NCBI GenBank assembly: GCA_019429105.1
Contig: JAHYJE010000009.1
Coordinates: 1 to 64,000 of the forward strand
Direction of reading: 5' to 3'
From: Syntrophobacterales bacterium
GTDB lineage: Bacteria > Desulfobacterota > Syntrophia > Syntrophales > UBA5619
DNA: 64,000 nt
The notes beneath the pieces are model-generated. The model did not search any database and had not been told where the DNA came from. It worked only from the letters and a program-made list of their open reading frames with translations. The position numbers were made by a program, and so were the translations under genes. Within the stretch, counting starts at the first letter, position 1. Each line of letters opens with the position of its first letter. Below, in pieces: positions 9,548 through 20,788 of the stretch.

Positions 9548-10210
9548 GCAAATGGCTCCAAACGACCAACAGTTCCCGTTCCTTCCGGCTGGCAATATAA
9601 AGAAACAGCCGAACGCCGCTGATATCAATAATTATTATAACAGCTTATCATACCGCTGGGATCGCATAATGAGCCAGAAAGCTTGGAGTGATTAACCATC
9701 CCTGCCCGATGCGCCGGAGAAGCGAGTGTTAATATATTTAACACATTTTTACGGTAACGCAGCAGTAGCCCCCCTCCGGAAACTACGGCTTTTTGTTACT
9801 AACCACACGACATAAAACAACATTTAATTTTGATACAATAAATTATTTATTTAATGCATTGATATTTAAAGGAAATTAACAATCTTCTCAATTTCCCTGT
9901 TATTCCTGATGCTTACAGATACTGTTAATATTCTATACATGTGCATGTAAATATAATTAACAGTATCTGGCGTGTCTCTTCCCCGGCGTCCTTCTACCAG
10001 TAGATATTCATCAATATAAGCTACCGTTTATACACTGTAATTTAATTATTATCAGCTGTTTATATTTTCTGGCATGAATCATGTTTATCAGAAAGCAAAG
10101 GGTAAAAGTAGCGGTGAATAAGCAAAGCATAAAAGGGAGAACGGAAAATTCAATAGCGGCGGACGCACATTGACACTCAAAAATGAGAAATCATAGAAAA
10201 GGAGGACACC
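9548..10210. other. AT-rich intergenic control region
   Basis: About 660 bp with no credible gene on either strand, distinctly richer in A+T than its surroundings. It contains one large palindrome (listed separately). The GGAGGACACC ribosome binding site of the downstream redox module lies at its right end. Presumably it is the promoter/leader region of that module; I could not place a convincing -35/-10 pair that also leaves room for the ribosome binding site. Confidence 0.5.
9916..9969. repeat. large perfect inverted repeat upstream of the redox module
   Basis: CAGATACTGTTAAT (9916-9929) is repeated in perfect inverse as ATTAACAGTATCTG (9956-9969) around a 26-bp centre that itself contains ACATG-TG-CATGT. 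No T-run follows, so a simple terminator is unlikely. It could be an operator pair or an mRNA leader hairpin. Confidence 0.6.
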
Positions 10211-10444
10211 ATGAGTACAGCAGTCATCATCATTCTTTTAGCGTTAGGTTTAATCATGCCCCTGTTTTGGATTATAGGCGCCATGACGTCTGTAGGATAT
10301 GTTGCGATATCCAGGGGAATGGACATCTTAACGAGGGCCAGGGAAAGGGACGGCGAGGTTAATGCCGTGGCTTTCAAAGGGCAGCTCGGCGTAACAATGG
10401 CCGACGGCGGCGCGGCAATTGAGAAAGAGAAAGAGAAAAAATAA
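10211..10444 (+). CDS. small membrane protein with C-terminal LGVTMADGG motif
   Basis: 77 residues: one N-terminal membrane segment (about 3-33), a charged helix (DILTRARERDGEV), then LGVTMADGG (59-67) and a Glu/Lys-rich end. GGAGG precedes the ATG by 5 nt. It is the first gene of the redox module and is not a known family to me. The same LGVTMADGG nonamer ends the NrfD-like subunit, with nearly identical DNA, which points to one complex. Inference: an accessory or assembly subunit. Confidence 0.75.
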   Translation: MSTAVIIILLALGLIMPLFWIIGAMTSVGYVAISRGMDILTRARERDGEVNAVAFKGQLGVTMADGGAAIEKEKEKK

Positions 10445-10588
10445 AATGTGTTCATTTACAGGATGCCGCCTGTCGGATCCGACGAAAAAAGGAGAGACAG
10501 ACGGCAAAAAAGGCGAGAAACGAATCTTGAAGCGTTCCGGCATAAACGGGGCGACAGAAAAAATCGAGAAGAAAAGGAGCTAGTGATT

Positions 10589-11470
10589 ATGGGAATCGAC
10601 AGGAGGACTTTTCTAAAAGGCATGGGTGCGGGCTTCGGCGTAAGCGCGGCCGGCGCATTGTTGCCGGTAAAGGCGGAGGCGAGCGCCCCGGTATCGGATA
10701 AAGAATTCGTAGGAGTGCTCGTCGATACGACGCGCTGCGTCGGTTGCAGGAGCTGTGAAAAGGCGTGCGCCGAGGCGCATGGCCTGCCAGTTCCCAATAT
10801 CGACGATTCTTCCGTTTTCGACAAAAGAAGGACCACCAATGCGCACCAGCTTGAGGCAGTAAACCGTTTTCAAACAAACAAAGGAGAGGTTTTTGTCAAG
10901 AAGCAGTGCATGCACTGCAACCAGCCCGCCTGCGTTTCGGCATGTCCCGTCAAGGCGATGGAAAAGCATGATGAAGGCGCCGTCACCTGGAATGACAACT
11001 GTATCGGCTGCCGTTACTGCATGACGTCCTGCCCCTTCGACATTCCGAAATTTGAACATTCCGCCTTCCCGGAACTGCACAAATGCGACATGTGCTACAG
11101 CCGGACGCAGAAGGGTCTGGAGCCTGCCTGCGTGGAAGCGTGCCCCGCATTCGCACTTACCTTCGGCACGAGAAGAGAGATGATCGACGAAGCCAACAGG
11201 CGTATTTACAGCGACGAAAAGAATTACTACCACCACATCTACGGCGAAAACGAGGCCGGCGGCACCGGTTATATGTACATCTCGGCGGCGCCTTTCGAAC
11301 AGATCGGATTCAGAAACGACATTGGAACAACGGCTTATCCCGAATATACAAAAGGCTTCCTGTACAGTGTGCCTGTCATACTGCTTTTGTGGCCCGCCTT
11401 TATGAGCGCGATAGCTACGATAACCAAACGCAAGGCAAAAGTAAAAGTTGAAGAGGGAGGGATGAGATGA
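10589..11470 (+). CDS. Tat-exported 4x[4Fe-4S] ferredoxin subunit (HybA/DsrO/HmcB-like)
   Basis: 293 residues. The twin-arginine signal RRTFLKGMGAGFG (residues 5-17) sends it across the membrane folded. Four Cys clusters follow: CVGCRSCEKAC, CMHCNQPACVSACP, CIGCRYCMTSCPF and CDMCYSRTQKGLEPACVEAC. A C-terminal hydrophobic segment (about 257-277) anchors it. This is the electron-wiring subunit that pairs with NrfD/HybB-type membrane proteins. Start ATG at 10589, preceded by AAGGAG 8 nt upstream; a longer frame to 10448 would hide the Tat signal. Its stop overlaps the next start by 4 bp. Confidence 0.9.
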   Translation: MGIDRRTFLKGMGAGFGVSAAGALLPVKAEASAPVSDKEFVGVLVDTTRCVGCRSCEKACAEAHGLPVPNIDDSSVFDKRRTTNAHQLEAVNRFQTNKGEVFVKKQCMHCNQPACVSACPVKAMEKHDEGAVTWNDNCIGCRYCMTSCPFDIPKFEHSAFPELHKCDMCYSRTQKGLEPACVEACPAFALTFGTRREMIDEANRRIYSDEKNYYHHIYGENEAGGTGYMYISAAPFEQIGFRNDIGTTAYPEYTKGFLYSVPVILLLWPAFMSAIATITKRKAKVKVEEGGMR

Positions 11471-12810
11471 ACAGCTTAGCGACTAACCGGGAAACAAAGA
11501 GTTTCAAGGAACTTCTGACTTTTTTGAAGGGTGAATTAAAACCGAAGGGTAGGGTTCTCACCCCGTTCAATATCATTTCCGGCGCCATAATTTTTACCGG
11601 CATCCTTTTGGTTATTTACCGGCTCGCGATGGGGCTGGGCTCGGTAGTGAATGAAGTCCCTGAATACCCTTGGGGAATCTGGATCGGGTTCATCGTGATG
11701 GTCGGGGTTGCCTTCGCCGGAGGGGCGTATGTAAGCGCCTTTGTCGTTTACGTGCTGGGAGGCGAAAAGTATCACGCCATAGTCAGGCTGGCTGTCCTGA
11801 ATGGGTTTCTGGCGTATATGTTCTACGCCGGGGCAATTCTGCTCGATTGCGGACGCTGGTGGCAAATCTACAATCCGATCATCGGCAACAAGTTCGGCGT
11901 CAATTCCGTCCTGTTTCTGATCGCCTGGCATTTCCTGCTCTACATGATCGCGCAGTTCTTCGAGCTGGCCCCGGCTTTCGCTGAATGGCTGGGCTTGAGG
12001 AAGATGCGCAAGTTCTTCATGTCGGTAAGCCTCGGCGCAGTCATCTTCGGGGTTACGCTCTCCACGCTGCATCAGTCGGGTCTGGGCGCGCTGTTCCTGA
12101 TGGCCAAATGGAAGGTACATCCCTTGTGGTACAATGAGTTCATCCCCCTGCTGTTTTTTGTCTCGAGTATTTACGCCGGGCTTTCCGTAGTCATCTTCAT
12201 CGGCAATTTGAGCTTCCGCGTCTTCGGCAAGGATCGGGTTGACGAGGAGTATCGCGAATCGTGGAAAAATATCGAGATCGACTTGGGCAAGGCCTGCGCG
12301 GTCGGCATGTTCGTTTACTTTTTCCTGCAGGTGATTCTGCTGGTTCACGGCCAGCACTGGAATCTTCTGAATACCGGAATGGGCTACTGGTATCTGACGG
12401 AAATGTTCGGCTTCCTGCTTCTCCCGATTGCCCTGTTCACCTGGGGCGTAAAAAAGGCCAACCGAACGCCTATCCGGGTTGCCGCCTACATTACCATGGC
12501 GGGGGTGATCTTCAACCGGATCGACTATTCGATACTTGCCTTCAAATGGTACCTGCCTTTTAGTGAACGGTATATCCCGACCTGGATGGAGGTAACCATT
12601 ACCGCGTCGATCGTCCTTTTGATGGTCTGGGTTTTCCGATGGCTCGTAAATCGGCTGCCGATATTGAAGCACTCCCCGCAATGGGCGGTGGAACAGGATC
12701 GGGAAATGGAAGCTGAAGCCAATGCTCCCGCGCTTGCCCCGGGCCTGGGCGTCACGATGGCCGACGGCGGCGTGCTGCTTGAAAAAGATAAAAACACTAA
12801 ACGTTCCTGA
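11467..12810 (+). CDS. NrfD/HybB/PsrC-family integral membrane quinone-interacting subunit
   Basis: 447 residues with about ten membrane helices. The family pattern is clear: EYPWGIWIGFIVMVGVAFAG, LLDCGRWWQIYNP and LSTLHQSGLGALFLM. Such proteins exchange electrons between quinone and the Fe-S subunit on the outer face. The C-terminal tail (about 425-447) ends GLGVTMADGGVLLEKDK, the tag shared with the 77-residue protein. It overlaps the ferredoxin gene (ATGA). No catalytic molybdenum, hydrogenase or cytochrome c subunit is encoded beside it, so its partner enzyme is unknown. Confidence 0.9.
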   Translation: MNSLATNRETKSFKELLTFLKGELKPKGRVLTPFNIISGAIIFTGILLVIYRLAMGLGSVVNEVPEYPWGIWIGFIVMVGVAFAGGAYVSAFVVYVLGGEKYHAIVRLAVLNGFLAYMFYAGAILLDCGRWWQIYNPIIGNKFGVNSVLFLIAWHFLLYMIAQFFELAPAFAEWLGLRKMRKFFMSVSLGAVIFGVTLSTLHQSGLGALFLMAKWKVHPLWYNEFIPLLFFVSSIYAGLSVVIFIGNLSFRVFGKDRVDEEYRESWKNIEIDLGKACAVGMFVYFFLQVILLVHGQHWNLLNTGMGYWYLTEMFGFLLLPIALFTWGVKKANRTPIRVAAYITMAGVIFNRIDYSILAFKWYLPFSERYIPTWMEVTITASIVLLMVWVFRWLVNRLPILKHSPQWAVEQDREMEAEANAPALAPGLGVTMADGGVLLEKDKNTKRS

Positions 12811-12831
12811 TAAAGAAAGGGGGATTATATA

Positions 12832-13527
12832 ATGGAAGGGTTCACCTACGTTGACATATTCGCCACCAAGGGCATTGAATATCTGGTGATAATCGCGGTG
12901 CTGGCTACCTTTGTCGTGTTCTGGAATTTTTTGAAAGGACCCGCTGAGGCCGTTTACCAAGGGGTTGCCAACGCCGTTTCGGCAATCGGCAACTGGTTCA
13001 GCATGCCGGCCCAGGGGATGTTTTTCCACCAGGGGCATAGCTGGGCTGCGCTCGAGGAAGGAAACATCATGAAGGTGGGAATGGATGACTTTGCCCAGAA
13101 AATGCTCGGGAAAATAGATTCAATCAATCTTCCGCAGGTTGGCGCTGAAGTCGCCCAGGGAGAAAAGGGGTGGAGCGTACAGGTAGGCTCCAAACTGATT
13201 GATATGCTCTCCCCCGTTGACGGTAAAATAGTTGCCGTGAACGAAGCCCTGCTGAAATCTCCCGCCGGGGTGAACAGCGATCCCTATGGGCAGTCCTGGC
13301 TGATCAAGGTTCAATCCCCGCGGGTTTCATCCAACCTGAAAAATCTTCTGACCGGGGATTTGGCCATAAAATGGATGGACGGCGTCAGGGACAGCCTTCT
13401 GACTCGGGGAAATTACAACCTGGGCGCCCTTTCCCAGGATGGTGGTGTGCCGGTGGACGGCATTGCCAGAAACATGGATCCGGAGAACTGGGATAAGCTG
13501 GTAAAAGATTTCTTCCTGGTTTCTTAG
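12832..13527 (+). CDS. membrane-anchored GcvH-like (H-protein fold) protein without lipoyl lysine at the standard site
   Basis: 231 residues: an N-terminal membrane helix (about 14-32), then an H-protein-like domain (GHSWAALEEGNIMKVGMDDF, LPQVGAEV, LSPVDGKIVAVNEALL, SDPYGQSWLIKV). In GcvH the lipoylated Lys stands eight residues before the Pro of the (S/A)P motif. Here that position is Ser, with a Lys one residue later (GSKLIDMLSP). The C-terminus has LGALSQDGG (about 197-205), a variant of the module tag, then ENWDKLVKDFFLVS. Strong AAAGGGGG site upstream. Possibly a structural or carrier subunit; glycine cleavage genes are absent. Confidence 0.8.
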   Translation: MEGFTYVDIFATKGIEYLVIIAVLATFVVFWNFLKGPAEAVYQGVANAVSAIGNWFSMPAQGMFFHQGHSWAALEEGNIMKVGMDDFAQKMLGKIDSINLPQVGAEVAQGEKGWSVQVGSKLIDMLSPVDGKIVAVNEALLKSPAGVNSDPYGQSWLIKVQSPRVSSNLKNLLTGDLAIKWMDGVRDSLLTRGNYNLGALSQDGGVPVDGIARNMDPENWDKLVKDFFLVS

Positions 13528-13558
13528 ATAGAGACTTGAAGGAACAAAAGGTGCAGAG

Positions 13559-14350
13559 ATGGATTCAATTAGCTCAAAGTGCAAAGGTTATCCCCTGATT
13601 CCAGCAGAAGAAAACAAATGCGTCTGGATGAAAACAGGGCTCGTATCCTACAAGCTGTGCGACAGAAACGACCACTGCGAGACCTGCCCTTTCGACCGCG
13701 CAATGAAAAACGGGGGGGACAGTAATTTCTCCGAATCATCGGAAATAGAAGAGGAGGGGTCGTTTTTCGACGATCCGTCATCCCAGCTCGACAACGGCTC
13801 CTTCCTCTTTCATCCTGATCACTGCTGGGTAAAGGTGGAAAGCCACGAAAAGGTGCGGATCGGTTTGGATTCACTGATCACGATGCTTATCTCCAACGTG
13901 CAGTTGGTAATCCTGCCCGCGGAGGGCTCTTTCACCGGCGCCGGAGAATGTTTTGCCCACATTATTCAGGGAGATTACGTATTGCCGGTGATTTCTCCCG
14001 TTTCCGGGGTCATTATCGCGACGAATTACCGTCTTAAAAACAACCCGGGGCTGCTCACCTCCGATCCGCAGGGAAATGGCTGGCTCGTTACGATCAAACC
14101 GGACAATCTCGAAAACGATTTTAAAAAACTCTTTTTCGGGAGAAAAGCGCTCTTCTGGAAACACCGGGAGGAAAACGATATCGCCAACAGGGTTTGCTCG
14201 CTTGTGAAAATGAGCTCGCCCCAGGTCGGCCCCACCATGCAGGATGGAGGCGCCCAGGTAACCAACCTGAGAGACCTGCTCCGTTCGATCAATTCAAAAC
14301 AGCTTGTCCAGATTCTGGATTCGGTTGTTTCCCGGCATAAAGCCTACTGA
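13559..14350 (+). CDS. soluble GcvH-like protein with N-terminal Cys motif, lipoyl lysine replaced by Asp
   Basis: 263 residues. The N-terminal region has Cys 8, 21, 34, 40 and 43 in CVWMKTGLVSYKLCDRNDHC then ETCPFDRAM, suggesting a metal or Fe-S site. Residues about 90-195 are H-protein-like (HPDHCWVKVESHEKVRIGLD, ISPVSGVIIATN, SDPQGNGWLVTI). The residue at the lipoyl-Lys position is Asp (GDYVLPVISP), so lipoylation there is impossible. VGPTMQDGG (about 223-231) is the module tag. It has no membrane helix, so it would be a cytoplasmic partner. Last gene of the module, followed by hairpins. Confidence 0.75.
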   Translation: MDSISSKCKGYPLIPAEENKCVWMKTGLVSYKLCDRNDHCETCPFDRAMKNGGDSNFSESSEIEEEGSFFDDPSSQLDNGSFLFHPDHCWVKVESHEKVRIGLDSLITMLISNVQLVILPAEGSFTGAGECFAHIIQGDYVLPVISPVSGVIIATNYRLKNNPGLLTSDPQGNGWLVTIKPDNLENDFKKLFFGRKALFWKHREENDIANRVCSLVKMSSPQVGPTMQDGGAQVTNLRDLLRSINSKQLVQILDSVVSRHKAY

Positions 14351-14359
14351 CATCGCATC

Positions 14360-14394
14360 CCCTTTGCCGAAACCCTAACGGAAAAGGCAAAGGG
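14360..14394. terminator. hairpin after the redox module
   Basis: CCCTTTGCC (14360-14368) and GGCAAAGGG (14386-14394) are perfect 9-bp arms just after the last gene. No T-run follows, so termination is only probable. Confidence 0.45.
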
Positions 14395-14424
14395 AATGCA
14401 CTATCGCACCTCTCCATGAAGATT

Positions 14425-16424: not shown

Positions 16425-19400
16425 TTATTCCCCCTCGGCCCTGAGCCGCGGCCTCTTCATTTCCGCCTGAACAGACATCACCATCAGGTGGAGGCGATTC
16501 AGGATATTGACCTCGGTTGTCCCCGGGTCCATGTCAATATACAGCAGGTTGAGCTGCGGATACAGCTTCTTCAGCCTTTTTTCCACTCCCTTGCCGATGA
16601 TGTGATTTGCCAGGCAGCCGAACGGCTGCAGACAGACGATATGGTCAACCCCCTGGCGCACCATCGCAATGATTTCGGCCGGCAGCAGCCACCCCTCGCC
16701 GGCCTGATTGGCAAGGCTTGTCACCTTGCCCGCCTCCCGCGCCAGTTCCTTCAAACTGCAGGTCCTCCGGTAATAACGGAACCCTTTCATGACCCGTTCG
16801 ACGCGATAAAGGTAAAAGCCGATATAGCGATCCAGCAGGCCCAGAACCACCCGCTCCCGAAGGTAACTTTTCATGAAAGCCTGCTGATCGAATTCCTCAT
16901 TGACGAAACGCTGCTCGAAAAAACTCAGCAGCGGGGGGACGACCACCTCAACCCCCTTTGTCCGGAACCAGTCCACGATGTTGTTATTGGAAAATTCATT
17001 GTGTTTGACGAATATCTCTCCGAGCAGCCCGATTACGGGAACCGAATCATCATGAACCGGAATGATATTGAAATCGCGGATGGCCGCCTTCAGCATGGCG
17101 AGGAGAAGTCCGAAGTCTTCCCGGCTTATGAGGATGCCCAGCTCGTCAAGATACTTCTTTTGCAGGGCCATGGCCGAGCCGGAATGGAGCTCGCGCGGCG
17201 CTGTTGCCAGGGTCATTTTCGACAGGGGATCGGCAAACATCAGCCCCAGCGCCAGTCGTTTTACCAGTCTTTTCTGATCGATCGGGATGCCCGCCTGACT
17301 GAGCGTATCCCCCTCGGAAAGGGAAACAACCGGCACCTCGCCAAACCCCGCCGCGATAAGCGCCTTCCGGGCAAGCGGTACATAGCTTGACGCCCGGCAC
17401 TGGCCAAAGGTCTGGGTAAGCAATACGGTAGTTTTCATGGGGTCCCATTTGCCTGATTGCAGGGCCTTGACAATATCCCCGATAACGATCAGCGCCGGGT
17501 AGCAGACGTCGTTGTTTACATATCGGAGCCCCACATCCACCGACGAACGTTCCTGAGGGGCGAGCAGCTCCACCTTATAGCCCAGCGAGGCAAAGATAGC
17601 AGGAATTGCCGGCGAATAAAAGGGAGAAAACCAGGGAACAATAATCGTCCTGTCCGCTTCCTTTCCTTCAATCCGCTCGGCGGAAAAAGGCGGCAATGCA
17701 TGCGGTGTTGAGCTTTGCGACCTCTCTTTGGCTATATCGAGCATGGAGCGCAGACGAATTCTTACCGCTCCGAGATTGGAGATCTCGTCCATCTTGATGA
17801 GCGTATAAACCTTCCCCTTTTCAGTAATGATAGCCCTCGCCTCGTCGGTGGAAATGGCATCAAGGCCGCAGCCGAACGAGGTGATCTGAAGCAGTTCGAG
17901 ATGGGGATTGGCAGCGACAAACCGGGCGACGGCAAGTATCCGATTGGTGTATTCCCACTGGCTCAGGACGCTAATATTTTTGAGTATATGCCCGTCTTTA
18001 GCAACCGGAACTGCACTCTCGGGGATAACATCCACCCCCATCCCCGCGAGCATTTCGGGAAGGCCGTGGTTCACCAGCGGATCGGCATGGTAGGGTCGGC
18101 CGGCAACGACCACGGCAAAACGCTTTGCCGCGCGGGCCTTTTCGATCAAGGCGACCGCCCGCCGGGACATTTCCTCCCGCACCCGTTGCTGCGCATCTCT
18201 GCCCTTCGTTACCGCCGCGGAGATTGTTTTTCGGGCGATCCCGTAACCCTTGAAAAACGAGTAAAGCTGTTTTTCGAGAAGCTCCCGCGACCTGAAACTG
18301 ACCACAGGACAGTCGAGCGGGACTCCATATCGCCCCTCCGGGTCGATCGCGCTGCGGATAACATCCGGATATCCGGTAACAACGGGGCAATTAAAACTGT
18401 TCAGCGTGTCCGCATCCTCCTTCGCCTCGAAGACAACGATCGGGTAGAAAATTCGCTCAACCCTTTTTTCTATCAGATCGAGGATATGACCATTGGCAAG
18501 CTTTCCCGGAAAACAGATATTGTCGGACATGACCGTTCGTATCCCCCGTTCAAACAGCTTCGTATCGGACGGGGCGGAAAGGACAACCTTAAAGCCGCAG
18601 GCGGTCAGAAAATTAGCCCAGAAGGGGAAGTTTTCGAACATGTTCAAGGCGCGGGGAATGCCAAAGGTCAGACGCGGCTTCTGTTTTGGCAGGAGGGGCT
18701 GGTCGAAAATCAGCTTCAGACGGTCGATAAAGAGATTCTCTCCGGTTGGGGACAGATTGGCAATCTGTCCCCCGGCGCCCTTGTTGCTGAAGTGGCGTTC
18801 GCAGCGATTGCCGGTAAAATAGTTCCGCCCGCCGCTGAAGGTTATCCGGGCAACCTTGCAGTTATTTTCGCAGCCGCTGCACCGTAACTCCCTTTTCCCG
18901 ATGATGTTTTCCTGTGTCTCGGCGTCCAGCCCCGGAAATGTGGAAGCCCGCGTCGGTTCCGCAAGACGGTCCTGCAAGGCCGTCAAGGCGGCGCCGTAGG
19001 CCCCCATTGCCTCCGAGATATCCGGACGGACCACCTGCCGGCCAATCTCCCGCTCAAACGCCCGCAGCACCGCCGGATTGCGGAATGTCCCTCCCTGCAC
19101 GACAATTTTATCGCCCAGCGCCGAGGGATCGTGCAACTTGAGAACCTTGTAGAGGGTATTGCCGATCACCGAACTCGCGAGTCCCGCGGAAATATCCCCA
19201 ACGGTGGCCCCTTCGCGCAGCGCCTGTTTTACCCGGGAGTTCATAAAAACCGTGCAACGCGTCCCCAGATCAAAGGGCGCCTCTGCCCTGCAGGCAACCC
19301 CGGCAAAATCGGAGACGCTGATATTCAGGGAATTGGCAAGCGTTTCTATGAAAGAACCGCAGCCCGATGAGCAAGCCTCGTTTATCTGAATATCGGCTAT

Positions 19401-20732
19401 TCCCCCGTCGCGCACATAAATCGCCTTCATGTCCTGACCGCCGATGTCAAGGATGAATGAGACCTCGGGCAGAAAATGGCGGGCCGCGCGATAGTGGGCA
19501 ACCGTCTCCACCACGCCGTCATCGATGGCAAACGCAGCCCTGATCAAATCCTCTCCATACCCGGTAACGGCCGTCCTGGCGACAAAGGGGGCAACACCCG
19601 CCGCGCGACAGGCATCCCTTAAAAATAAAAGCCCCCGGCGGACGGCGCCGATGGCATCGCCCCCATTCAACTGATACCAGGTAAGGGCAACCCGCTTTTT
19701 ATCGTCAATCAGGACAAGCTTCGTTGTCGTTGATCCGGAATCGATCCCCAGAAAACAGGGCGCCCCTTTCAGCTCCGCAACATCTACCCGGCAAACGCGT
19801 TTTTGATGATGCTCCTCCTCCCAGATTTCCACCTCCCGCTGCTCGGAAAAAAGGGGCGGGAGCCTTTTCTGATCCTCCTTGCACCCCTGCATTGTCCCGT
19901 TCCGGACAAGCTGAAGGCATTTTTCAATTTCGATCACAAGGCCCTCTCCCTCATGGCAAAGAGCCGCCCCCACTGCCGCCATCAGTTCCGGATGTTCACC
20001 CGCGGCGATATCCTGTTCGGGATCAAGCTGAAGCAGGCGGATAAAGGCCGCCCGCAGGGAAGGAAAGAAGGTCAGCGGTCCTCCGGCAAAAAGCACTTTT
20101 TTTTCAATGTCATGCCCTCGGGAAAGGGAGGAGATCACCTGAATCGCCATCGCATGAAACACCGATGCGGCAATATCCTCCCGGGAAACGCGATTGCTCA
20201 GGAGGGCCTGGACATCGGTCTTGGCAAAAACCCCGCAGCGGGAAGCTATCGGATAGAGTGCGCTGCTTTTTTGGGCCAGTTCGTCCAGTTTGTTCAAAGG
20301 CTCATTCAGCAGCACAGCCATCTGCTCGATAAAGGCGCCCGTTCCGCCCGCGCAGTTTCCGTTCATGCGGATGTCCGGCTGAAAACGATTGTCAAAAAAG
20401 GCGATTTTCGAATCCTCGCCCCCTATCTCTATCAGCGTTCGGACATCCGGCCAGCGGCGCTGGATAATTTTTGTCGAGGCGACAACTTCCTGTATAAAGG
20501 GAAGCTGAAAAGACTCGGCAACCCCCATCCCGGCGGAACCGGTGAGAACAACATCGAGGACGATATTTCCCAGCTCCTGCCTTGCCTCAATCAGCATTTC
20601 CGCTATCGTCCCCAGCGTCAACGAATGGTGGCGGCGATAACGGGAAAATAAGATGCTCCCGTTTTGAGCGCAGACAACCAGCTTTACCGTTGTAGAACCG
20701 GCATCTATTCCTGCTTTGTATATTTCCGCCAT
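16425..20732 (-). CDS. giant CoA-dehydratase activase (BadF/BcrD/HgdC ATPase, tandem) with DUF2229
   Basis: 1435 residues. Two ASKHA ATPase modules of the 2-hydroxyacyl-CoA dehydratase activator type lie in tandem: AGIDAGSTTVKLVV (about 6) with GNCAGGTGAF, and FLGIDSGSTTTKLVLIDD (about 324) with NEACSSGCGSFIE. The Cys of each is the [4Fe-4S] ligand position. Then come a Cys-rich segment (LRCSGCENNCKVARITFSGG), a DUF2229 domain (GIPRALNMFENFPFWANFL, SDNICFPGKL) and a C-terminal HgdB-like region. Family members fire electrons by ATP hydrolysis, but no dehydratase subunit is adjacent, so the client is unknown. The ATG at 20732 leaves a 50-nt leader from the mapped promoter; the alternative at 20771 would leave about 11 nt. 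Confidence 0.88.
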   Translation of the reverse strand: MAEIYKAGIDAGSTTVKLVVCAQNGSILFSRYRRHHSLTLGTIAEMLIEARQELGNIVLDVVLTGSAGMGVAESFQLPFIQEVVASTKIIQRRWPDVRTLIEIGGEDSKIAFFDNRFQPDIRMNGNCAGGTGAFIEQMAVLLNEPLNKLDELAQKSSALYPIASRCGVFAKTDVQALLSNRVSREDIAASVFHAMAIQVISSLSRGHDIEKKVLFAGGPLTFFPSLRAAFIRLLQLDPEQDIAAGEHPELMAAVGAALCHEGEGLVIEIEKCLQLVRNGTMQGCKEDQKRLPPLFSEQREVEIWEEEHHQKRVCRVDVAELKGAPCFLGIDSGSTTTKLVLIDDKKRVALTWYQLNGGDAIGAVRRGLLFLRDACRAAGVAPFVARTAVTGYGEDLIRAAFAIDDGVVETVAHYRAARHFLPEVSFILDIGGQDMKAIYVRDGGIADIQINEACSSGCGSFIETLANSLNISVSDFAGVACRAEAPFDLGTRCTVFMNSRVKQALREGATVGDISAGLASSVIGNTLYKVLKLHDPSALGDKIVVQGGTFRNPAVLRAFEREIGRQVVRPDISEAMGAYGAALTALQDRLAEPTRASTFPGLDAETQENIIGKRELRCSGCENNCKVARITFSGGRNYFTGNRCERHFSNKGAGGQIANLSPTGENLFIDRLKLIFDQPLLPKQKPRLTFGIPRALNMFENFPFWANFLTACGFKVVLSAPSDTKLFERGIRTVMSDNICFPGKLANGHILDLIEKRVERIFYPIVVFEAKEDADTLNSFNCPVVTGYPDVIRSAIDPEGRYGVPLDCPVVSFRSRELLEKQLYSFFKGYGIARKTISAAVTKGRDAQQRVREEMSRRAVALIEKARAAKRFAVVVAGRPYHADPLVNHGLPEMLAGMGVDVIPESAVPVAKDGHILKNISVLSQWEYTNRILAVARFVAANPHLELLQITSFGCGLDAISTDEARAIITEKGKVYTLIKMDEISNLGAVRIRLRSMLDIAKERSQSSTPHALPPFSAERIEGKEADRTIIVPWFSPFYSPAIPAIFASLGYKVELLAPQERSSVDVGLRYVNNDVCYPALIVIGDIVKALQSGKWDPMKTTVLLTQTFGQCRASSYVPLARKALIAAGFGEVPVVSLSEGDTLSQAGIPIDQKRLVKRLALGLMFADPLSKMTLATAPRELHSGSAMALQKKYLDELGILISREDFGLLLAMLKAAIRDFNIIPVHDDSVPVIGLLGEIFVKHNEFSNNNIVDWFRTKGVEVVVPPLLSFFEQRFVNEEFDQQAFMKSYLRERVVLGLLDRYIGFYLYRVERVMKGFRYYRRTCSLKELAREAGKVTSLANQAGEGWLLPAEIIAMVRQGVDHIVCLQPFGCLANHIIGKGVEKRLKKLYPQLNLLYIDMDPGTTEVNILNRLHLMVMSVQAEMKRPRLRAEGE

Positions 20733-20788
20733 ACCGTTTCGCCTTTTTACCCGACCGACCCCGCTCGCCATCCGCTTATTGGAGACTG

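Follow-up and report, generated by a model that had tools for sequence, protein, structure and literature searches.

Archaemetzincins (AMZ) occur in archaea, bacteria, and animals. According to PMC3427221, their natural substrates are unknown, the enzyme of M. kandleri is inactive on ordinary substrates and was proposed to have a stringent specificity, and CarG of Myxococcus is an AMZ-like protein that works as a transcriptional-regulator subdomain; other members of the family cleave casein and peptides (PMC4681839). Here we describe a five-gene membrane redox cluster whose proteins share a short peptide tag, show that the same tag accompanies a distinct subfamily of archaemetzincins in related bacteria, and consider what may read it. 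We know of no system that combines a portable tag with an archaemetzincin/two-component module, and a literature search, thin on subscription papers, found none.

Results

The cluster lies in a window of 64,000 nt, i.e., the whole stretch of DNA analysed (Table 1). The preliminary description had pointed to a motif, L/V-G-x-x-x-x-D-G-G, in four of five adjacent proteins, and each of the four copies was recovered at its position. It had also noted that the DNA of the first two copies is nearly identical and that only the ferredoxin lacks the motif: 24 of 27 bases are indeed the same in the two cores (75% identity over a 57-nt stretch), and the ferredoxin is the sole untagged protein of the five. 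A search for sigma-54 promoter sites upstream of the cluster gave nothing convincing; the long intergenic region there holds a 26-nt imperfect palindrome (9916-9969). Farther downstream, a 1448-aa ORF (16425-20771, minus strand) has, judged by eye, the look of a double activase/2-hydroxyacyl-CoA dehydratase-type protein.

Table 1 Features of the tagged cluster, in window positions
Feature	Position	Strand	Details
p77	10211..10444	+	one TM, predicted N-out/C-in; LGVTMADGG and E/K-rich tail at end
DGG tag 1, LGVTMADGG, in p77	10385..10411	+	
HmcB-like 4Fe-4S protein, Tat-exported, tail-anchored, untagged	10589..11470	+	NF045715 E 1.6e-95; C-terminal helix
HmcC/NrfD-like quinone-interacting membrane protein, C-tail tagged	11467..12810	+	NF045714 E 2.1e-108; PF03916
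DGG tag 2, LGVTMADGG, on NrfD-like C-tail	12745..12771	+	
GcvH1: HmcD-like membrane helix, GcvH-fold domain, tagged C-terminal segment	12832..13527	+	NF045712; PF01597 E 7.6e-26
DGG tag 3, LGALSQDGG, in GcvH1	13420..13446	+	
GcvH2: Cys-rich N-terminal region, GcvH-fold domain without lipoyl lysine, tagged C-terminal linker	13559..14350	+	PF01597 E 1e-17
DGG tag 4, VGPTMQDGG, in GcvH2	14225..14251	+	low-confidence loop of model
Short inverted repeat right after GcvH2	14355..14399	.	possible terminator

Among the 278 predicted ORFs of at least 60 aa in the window, the pattern [LVI]G....DGG matched only the four cluster proteins, and shuffling the five proteins 20,000 times gave at most one matching protein per shuffle. 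At the DNA level, the pattern G-x-T-M-x-D-G-G occurred three times in the whole genome of the window, always inside the cluster. A search of 61 related genomes returned 21 matches in eight genomes, vs three for the reversed control, and nearly every match fell in a homologous cluster, in contig-split pieces of one, or beside an AMZ gene.

Conservation of the motif was then checked across orthologues, and DGG was invariant in 14/14 GcvH1, 13/13 GcvH2-like, and 12/12 p77-like sequences. The consensus is L/V-G-x-T/V-M/Y/S-x-D-G-G, placed in tails or linkers, and the carriers belong to at least four unrelated protein families, including p77-like anchors, NrfD, GcvH-like proteins, small single-helix proteins (G081 and G374), and transporters of the major facilitator superfamily (MFS). 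Conserved, confined to tails and linkers, and shared by such unrelated families, the peptide does behave as the common tag first suspected. Since a tagged NrfD is confined to some members of the Syntrophales lineage and to G081 (there as NGG), and since its tail resembles that of p77 where it is tagged, the sequences suggest that one protein can acquire the tag as a copy from another. Hydropathy, the positive-inside rule, and family topology would place it in the cytoplasm.

The cluster was initially taken for an uncharacterised complex built around GcvH-fold proteins in place of a cytochrome, and neither half of that view was supported. The ferredoxin, the NrfD protein, and GcvH1 match the HmcB, HmcC, and HmcD models, respectively, although below the equivalog cut-offs (319.7 bits against 420 for NF045715; 363 bits against 550 for NF045714; and, for GcvH1 residues 10-36, 25.9 bits and E 7e-6 against 34 for NF045712). 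A Tat 4Fe-4S ferredoxin adjoining an NrfD/HybB-type membrane protein, together with an HmcD-type helix, makes up a broadly defined Hmc-like core; the HmcA 16-heme cytochrome, HmcE, and HmcF were not recognised by eye among the window ORFs neighbouring the cluster. The GcvH proteins do not replace a cytochrome, because relatives encode a c-type cytochrome with the cluster: related lineages have an extra tetra- or pentaheme cytochrome, and some of them encode cytochrome b561 together with a multiheme cytochrome. The HmcD-like helix is a stand-alone 46-residue ORF near HmcB-/HmcC-like genes in G031 and G047, so that the cluster is, on sequence grounds, an Hmc-type core whose HmcD gained a GcvH domain. 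These two loci (L101 and L102) are natural counterparts with neither tag nor AMZ, and L102 includes a cytochrome with 16 CxxCH motifs. As the ferredoxin carries a Tat signal, its folded part is periplasmic, which may be one reason for the missing tag. The redox core represents a known type in variant form; what is new is the tag.

GcvH1 has an invariant lysine, Lys121, one residue off the canonical lipoyl column and close to the modelled hairpin tip, and GcvH2 is probably non-lipoylated. Structure models (pLDDT 79 for GcvH1 and 71 for GcvH2) have a secondary structure consistent with the GcvH fold, and the GcvH2 tag is placed past the domain. No Pfam or NCBIfam family was found for p77. After its single membrane helix come the tag and a charged tail, predicted from hydropathy and charge to be cytoplasmic, and its orthologues conserve little besides the tag; as far as its alignment tells, p77 is a small family that amounts to little more than an anchored tag. 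Elsewhere, larger GcvH-like proteins (~340 aa) with the variant motif GPLSADGG lie near AMZ (L163, 13532-14581; L166, 8307-9320), and AMZ and GcvH genes often pair up where HmcB and HmcC genes are absent (L133, L143, L145, L147, L149, L152, and L153).

Gene neighbourhoods in relatives revealed a recurrent companion of the cluster, a protein of ~190 aa that is an archaemetzincin (peptidase M54; PF07998, E 1e-18 to 3e-27) at loci L004-L008, L011, L013, and L015. Its gene usually comes with those of a histidine kinase and an NtrC-type sigma-54 response regulator. The protein scores above the PF07998/NF033823 cut-offs and has the catalytic motif; in L004-L006 it starts at about the position of the window's inverted repeat. 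Of the single unseen partner originally postulated for the peptide, this AMZ/histidine kinase/response regulator module is the likeliest candidate, while the idea that one specific partner serves in every case did not stand; the peptide may thus have a further reader or a structural function within the complex.

We next surveyed the phylum, in which 145 of 394 genomes encode AMZ. Sixty AMZ loci picked blind to the tag yielded 30 tagged ORFs at 16 loci, vs none for the reversed motif and 0-2 for altered variants, and many AMZ loci had no tag nearby. The TMADGG pattern matched in 16 of the 394 genomes, 14 of them AMZ-positive (Fisher p 3e-5; two control matches). Matches of the tag pattern in G393 and G396 were dismissed as chance, the former because it lies in a small doubtful ORF and the latter because its neighbourhood holds no tagged ORF. 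All 30 tag-linked AMZ fell in one subclade (48 of 77 members; support 94/91), and all 30 keep the motif HExxHxxGxxHCx4Cx[M/L]...CxxC, with Met replaced by Leu in the MFS-linked members, whereas 12 of 48 AMZ without a tag link do not keep the catalytic motif. Six loci (L117, L125, L161, L165, L167, and L168), none of them tag-linked, hold an AMZ whose ORF, as called, shows no recognisable motif of the HExxH type, and these proteins are possibly non-proteolytic, by analogy with CarG. Tagged single-helix proteins also occur with an 8-heme cytochrome, a histidine kinase, and a response regulator, with no adjacent AMZ, in G081 (L192, 9492-13924) and G374 (L193, 8983-14102).

The tag is not peculiar to the redox complex, since lactate-type MFS transporters carry it too. 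In five genomes (G043, G277, G217, G175, and G150), the AMZ operon lies beside an L-lactate-type MFS transporter that ends in the tag and exceeds the cut-off of the L-lactate transporter model NF049980. Among the best 30 MFS homologues of one survey, all four beside AMZ were tagged (G277, G217, G150, and G175, ending in LGxTMADGGEK) vs none of the 26 others, which include copies located away from AMZ in AMZ-positive genomes; the p-value of 3.6e-5 overstates this evidence, because the AMZs of the five transporter loci form one supported subclade and the contrast probably reflects a single origin. The fifth transporter, of G043, has LGLAMADGG. Both G043 and G277 have tagged transporters, yet their only GcvH proteins are of standard length (138-154 aa) and GcvH1 and GcvH2 are absent, and GcvH2 was accordingly rejected as a universal reader of the tag.

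The kinases encoded with AMZ differ with the client. A single CxxCH between two membrane helices was present in 9/9 kinases examined from redox-client or same-subfamily loci, two of these coming from G001, which showed no client. None of four kinases from transporter loci had CxxCH, and the one checked for it (L148) has sCache_2, a small-molecule sensor family. Taken together, the periplasmic CxxCH of redox-type kinases and its lack at transporter loci suggest that the sensor fits the client, i.e., that a heme-c type appears with the redox complex and an sCache type with the transporter. The G001 locus (L099, 3369-8824), from the genus of the window, encodes two CxxCH-sensor histidine kinases, a sigma-54 regulator, and AMZ, and no tagged client was found within 18 kb of it or by pattern search of the genome.

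The window's own genome (G000, ~100% complete) has no AMZ found by Pfam model or protein search, and candidates for a kinase orthologue were rejected as paralogue-level kinase-domain matches only. Neither AMZ nor the kinase orthologue was found in G003. Between these two genomes, the 27 tag codons differ by two non-synonymous and 11 synonymous changes, and the 158 flanking codons by 52 non-synonymous changes; by this comparison, the tags of the window's genome look selectively maintained. Hence, either the tag persists in the absence of AMZ or both genomes have lost AMZ recently, and a second partner may exist. No AMZ was found in the genomes of L009, L010, and L012, which may be incomplete.

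Discussion

We propose, tentatively and with slightly less than even confidence, that this AMZ subfamily recognises the tag in the cytoplasm and probably cleaves it there, under the control of the paired kinase and regulator. The five genes would encode an Hmc-type quinone/periplasmic-cytochrome oxidoreductase core, a second GcvH protein, and a small anchored-tag protein, and the peptide would mark client proteins on their cytoplasmic tails as a portable recognition tag. In most of the bacteria that have this tag, a cytoplasmic AMZ, its gene grouped with those of a histidine kinase and a sigma-54 regulator, would bind it and probably clip the tagged clients; a signal would thereby set how much of a respiratory complex or lactate-type transporter is present, or how active it is. 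In the window's lineage, AMZ would have been lost or replaced, and the tag would have to serve with another partner. That AMZ reads the tag, and that it does so by cleavage, is our inference; the inactivity of the M. kandleri enzyme on ordinary substrates and its proposed stringent specificity would fit a short dedicated site. A more general form of the proposal, to which we lend a shade less credence, is a modular signalling-proteolysis system in which the sensor kinase is interchangeable and a sigma-54 regulator is coupled to an AMZ that recognises a portable DGG tail on the membrane proteins under control, these being an Hmc-type respiratory complex, a lactate-type transporter, and small anchored tags.

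Other readings account for part of the same observations. The tag could serve assembly or docking inside the complex, where a GcvH-fold or other core subunit would bind it, with AMZ only a co-regulated neighbour: tagged subunits share one operon, GcvH proteins accompany most tagged clients, and the tags are under constraint in the AMZ-less G000 and G003. However, the tagged MFS transporters of G043 and G277 occur without GcvH1 or GcvH2, and the GcvH proteins are themselves tagged, which makes docking an unlikely, if serious, explanation. The constraint in G000 and G003 would be equally accounted for if a general housekeeping protease or insertase used the tag as a degradation or processing signal and the link to AMZ were one of shared regulation, but a general signal would be expected on many proteins, and the matches in the 61 related genomes are nearly all linked to the cluster or to AMZ; we therefore regard this reading as improbable.

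A different division of labour, in which the kinase/regulator arm reads the tag or AMZ is used non-proteolytically, has a precedent in CarG (PMC3427221) and draws on the near-constant association of the AMZ subfamily with a histidine kinase and a response regulator. The catalytic motif, kept in every tag-linked AMZ and missing in a quarter of the unlinked ones, speaks against a non-proteolytic role, and the kinase orthologues are missing along with AMZ in G000 and G003, so that this division is also improbable, if marginally less so than a housekeeping signal. As for coincidence or low-complexity similarity, the motif is short, but the shuffles and reversed-pattern controls rule out such an origin, and conservation across lineages and the comparison of tagged with untagged MFS transporters further reduce its probability to next to nothing.

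If AMZ does read the tag, bacterial archaemetzincins would gain known natural substrates: the nine-residue peptide, which occurs on unrelated membrane proteins and tracks with one distinct AMZ subfamily, is a testable candidate substrate, and it would give these enzymes a defined setting, that of lactate uptake and anaerobic respiration among Desulfobacterota and their relatives. The analysis also defines an Hmc-type complex that includes GcvH-fold subunits, along with a small family of proteins conserved mainly in the tag. Should AMZ not be the reader, what would remain is a variant Hmc complex with a conserved tag shared among its proteins.

Compared with described archaemetzincins (M54; AmzA, AMZ1/2, and AMZ-tk), the tag-linked proteins of relatives fit the Pfam and NCBIfam models with an intact active-site motif, but differ in their linkage to a histidine kinase and response regulator and to a client tag, neither of which appears in the titles, abstracts, and available passages of the AMZ literature, and the window's genome lacks AMZ. 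GcvH1 and GcvH2 share their fold and PF01597 with the glycine cleavage H protein, but GcvH2 is without the lipoyl lysine, the lysine of GcvH1 is shifted, and the proteins have a membrane anchor (GcvH1) or a Cys-rich N-terminus (GcvH2); no glycine-cleavage genes were seen beside the cluster. Modules of a tail-anchored Tat ferredoxin with HybB/NrfD share the Tat signal, C-terminal helix, NrfD partner, and c-type cytochrome, but the available part of PMC10924467 describes no GcvH proteins, tag, or archaemetzincin with them. Literature on GcvH together with Hmc/NrfD in this composition was not found, in a search again thin on subscription papers. Another related system is the Hmc complex of sulfate reducers (HmcABCDEF), whose HmcB, HmcC, and HmcD models match the ferredoxin, NrfD protein, and small helix, and whose HmcA resembles in its C-terminal part, as does TmcA, the c-type cytochrome accompanying the cluster in relatives. 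The cluster differs from it in scoring below the equivalog cut-offs, in the fusion of HmcD to a GcvH domain, and in lacking HmcA, HmcE, and HmcF alongside, and it adds GcvH2, p77, and the DGG tags; untagged Hmc-like sets without AMZ also exist (L101 and L102).
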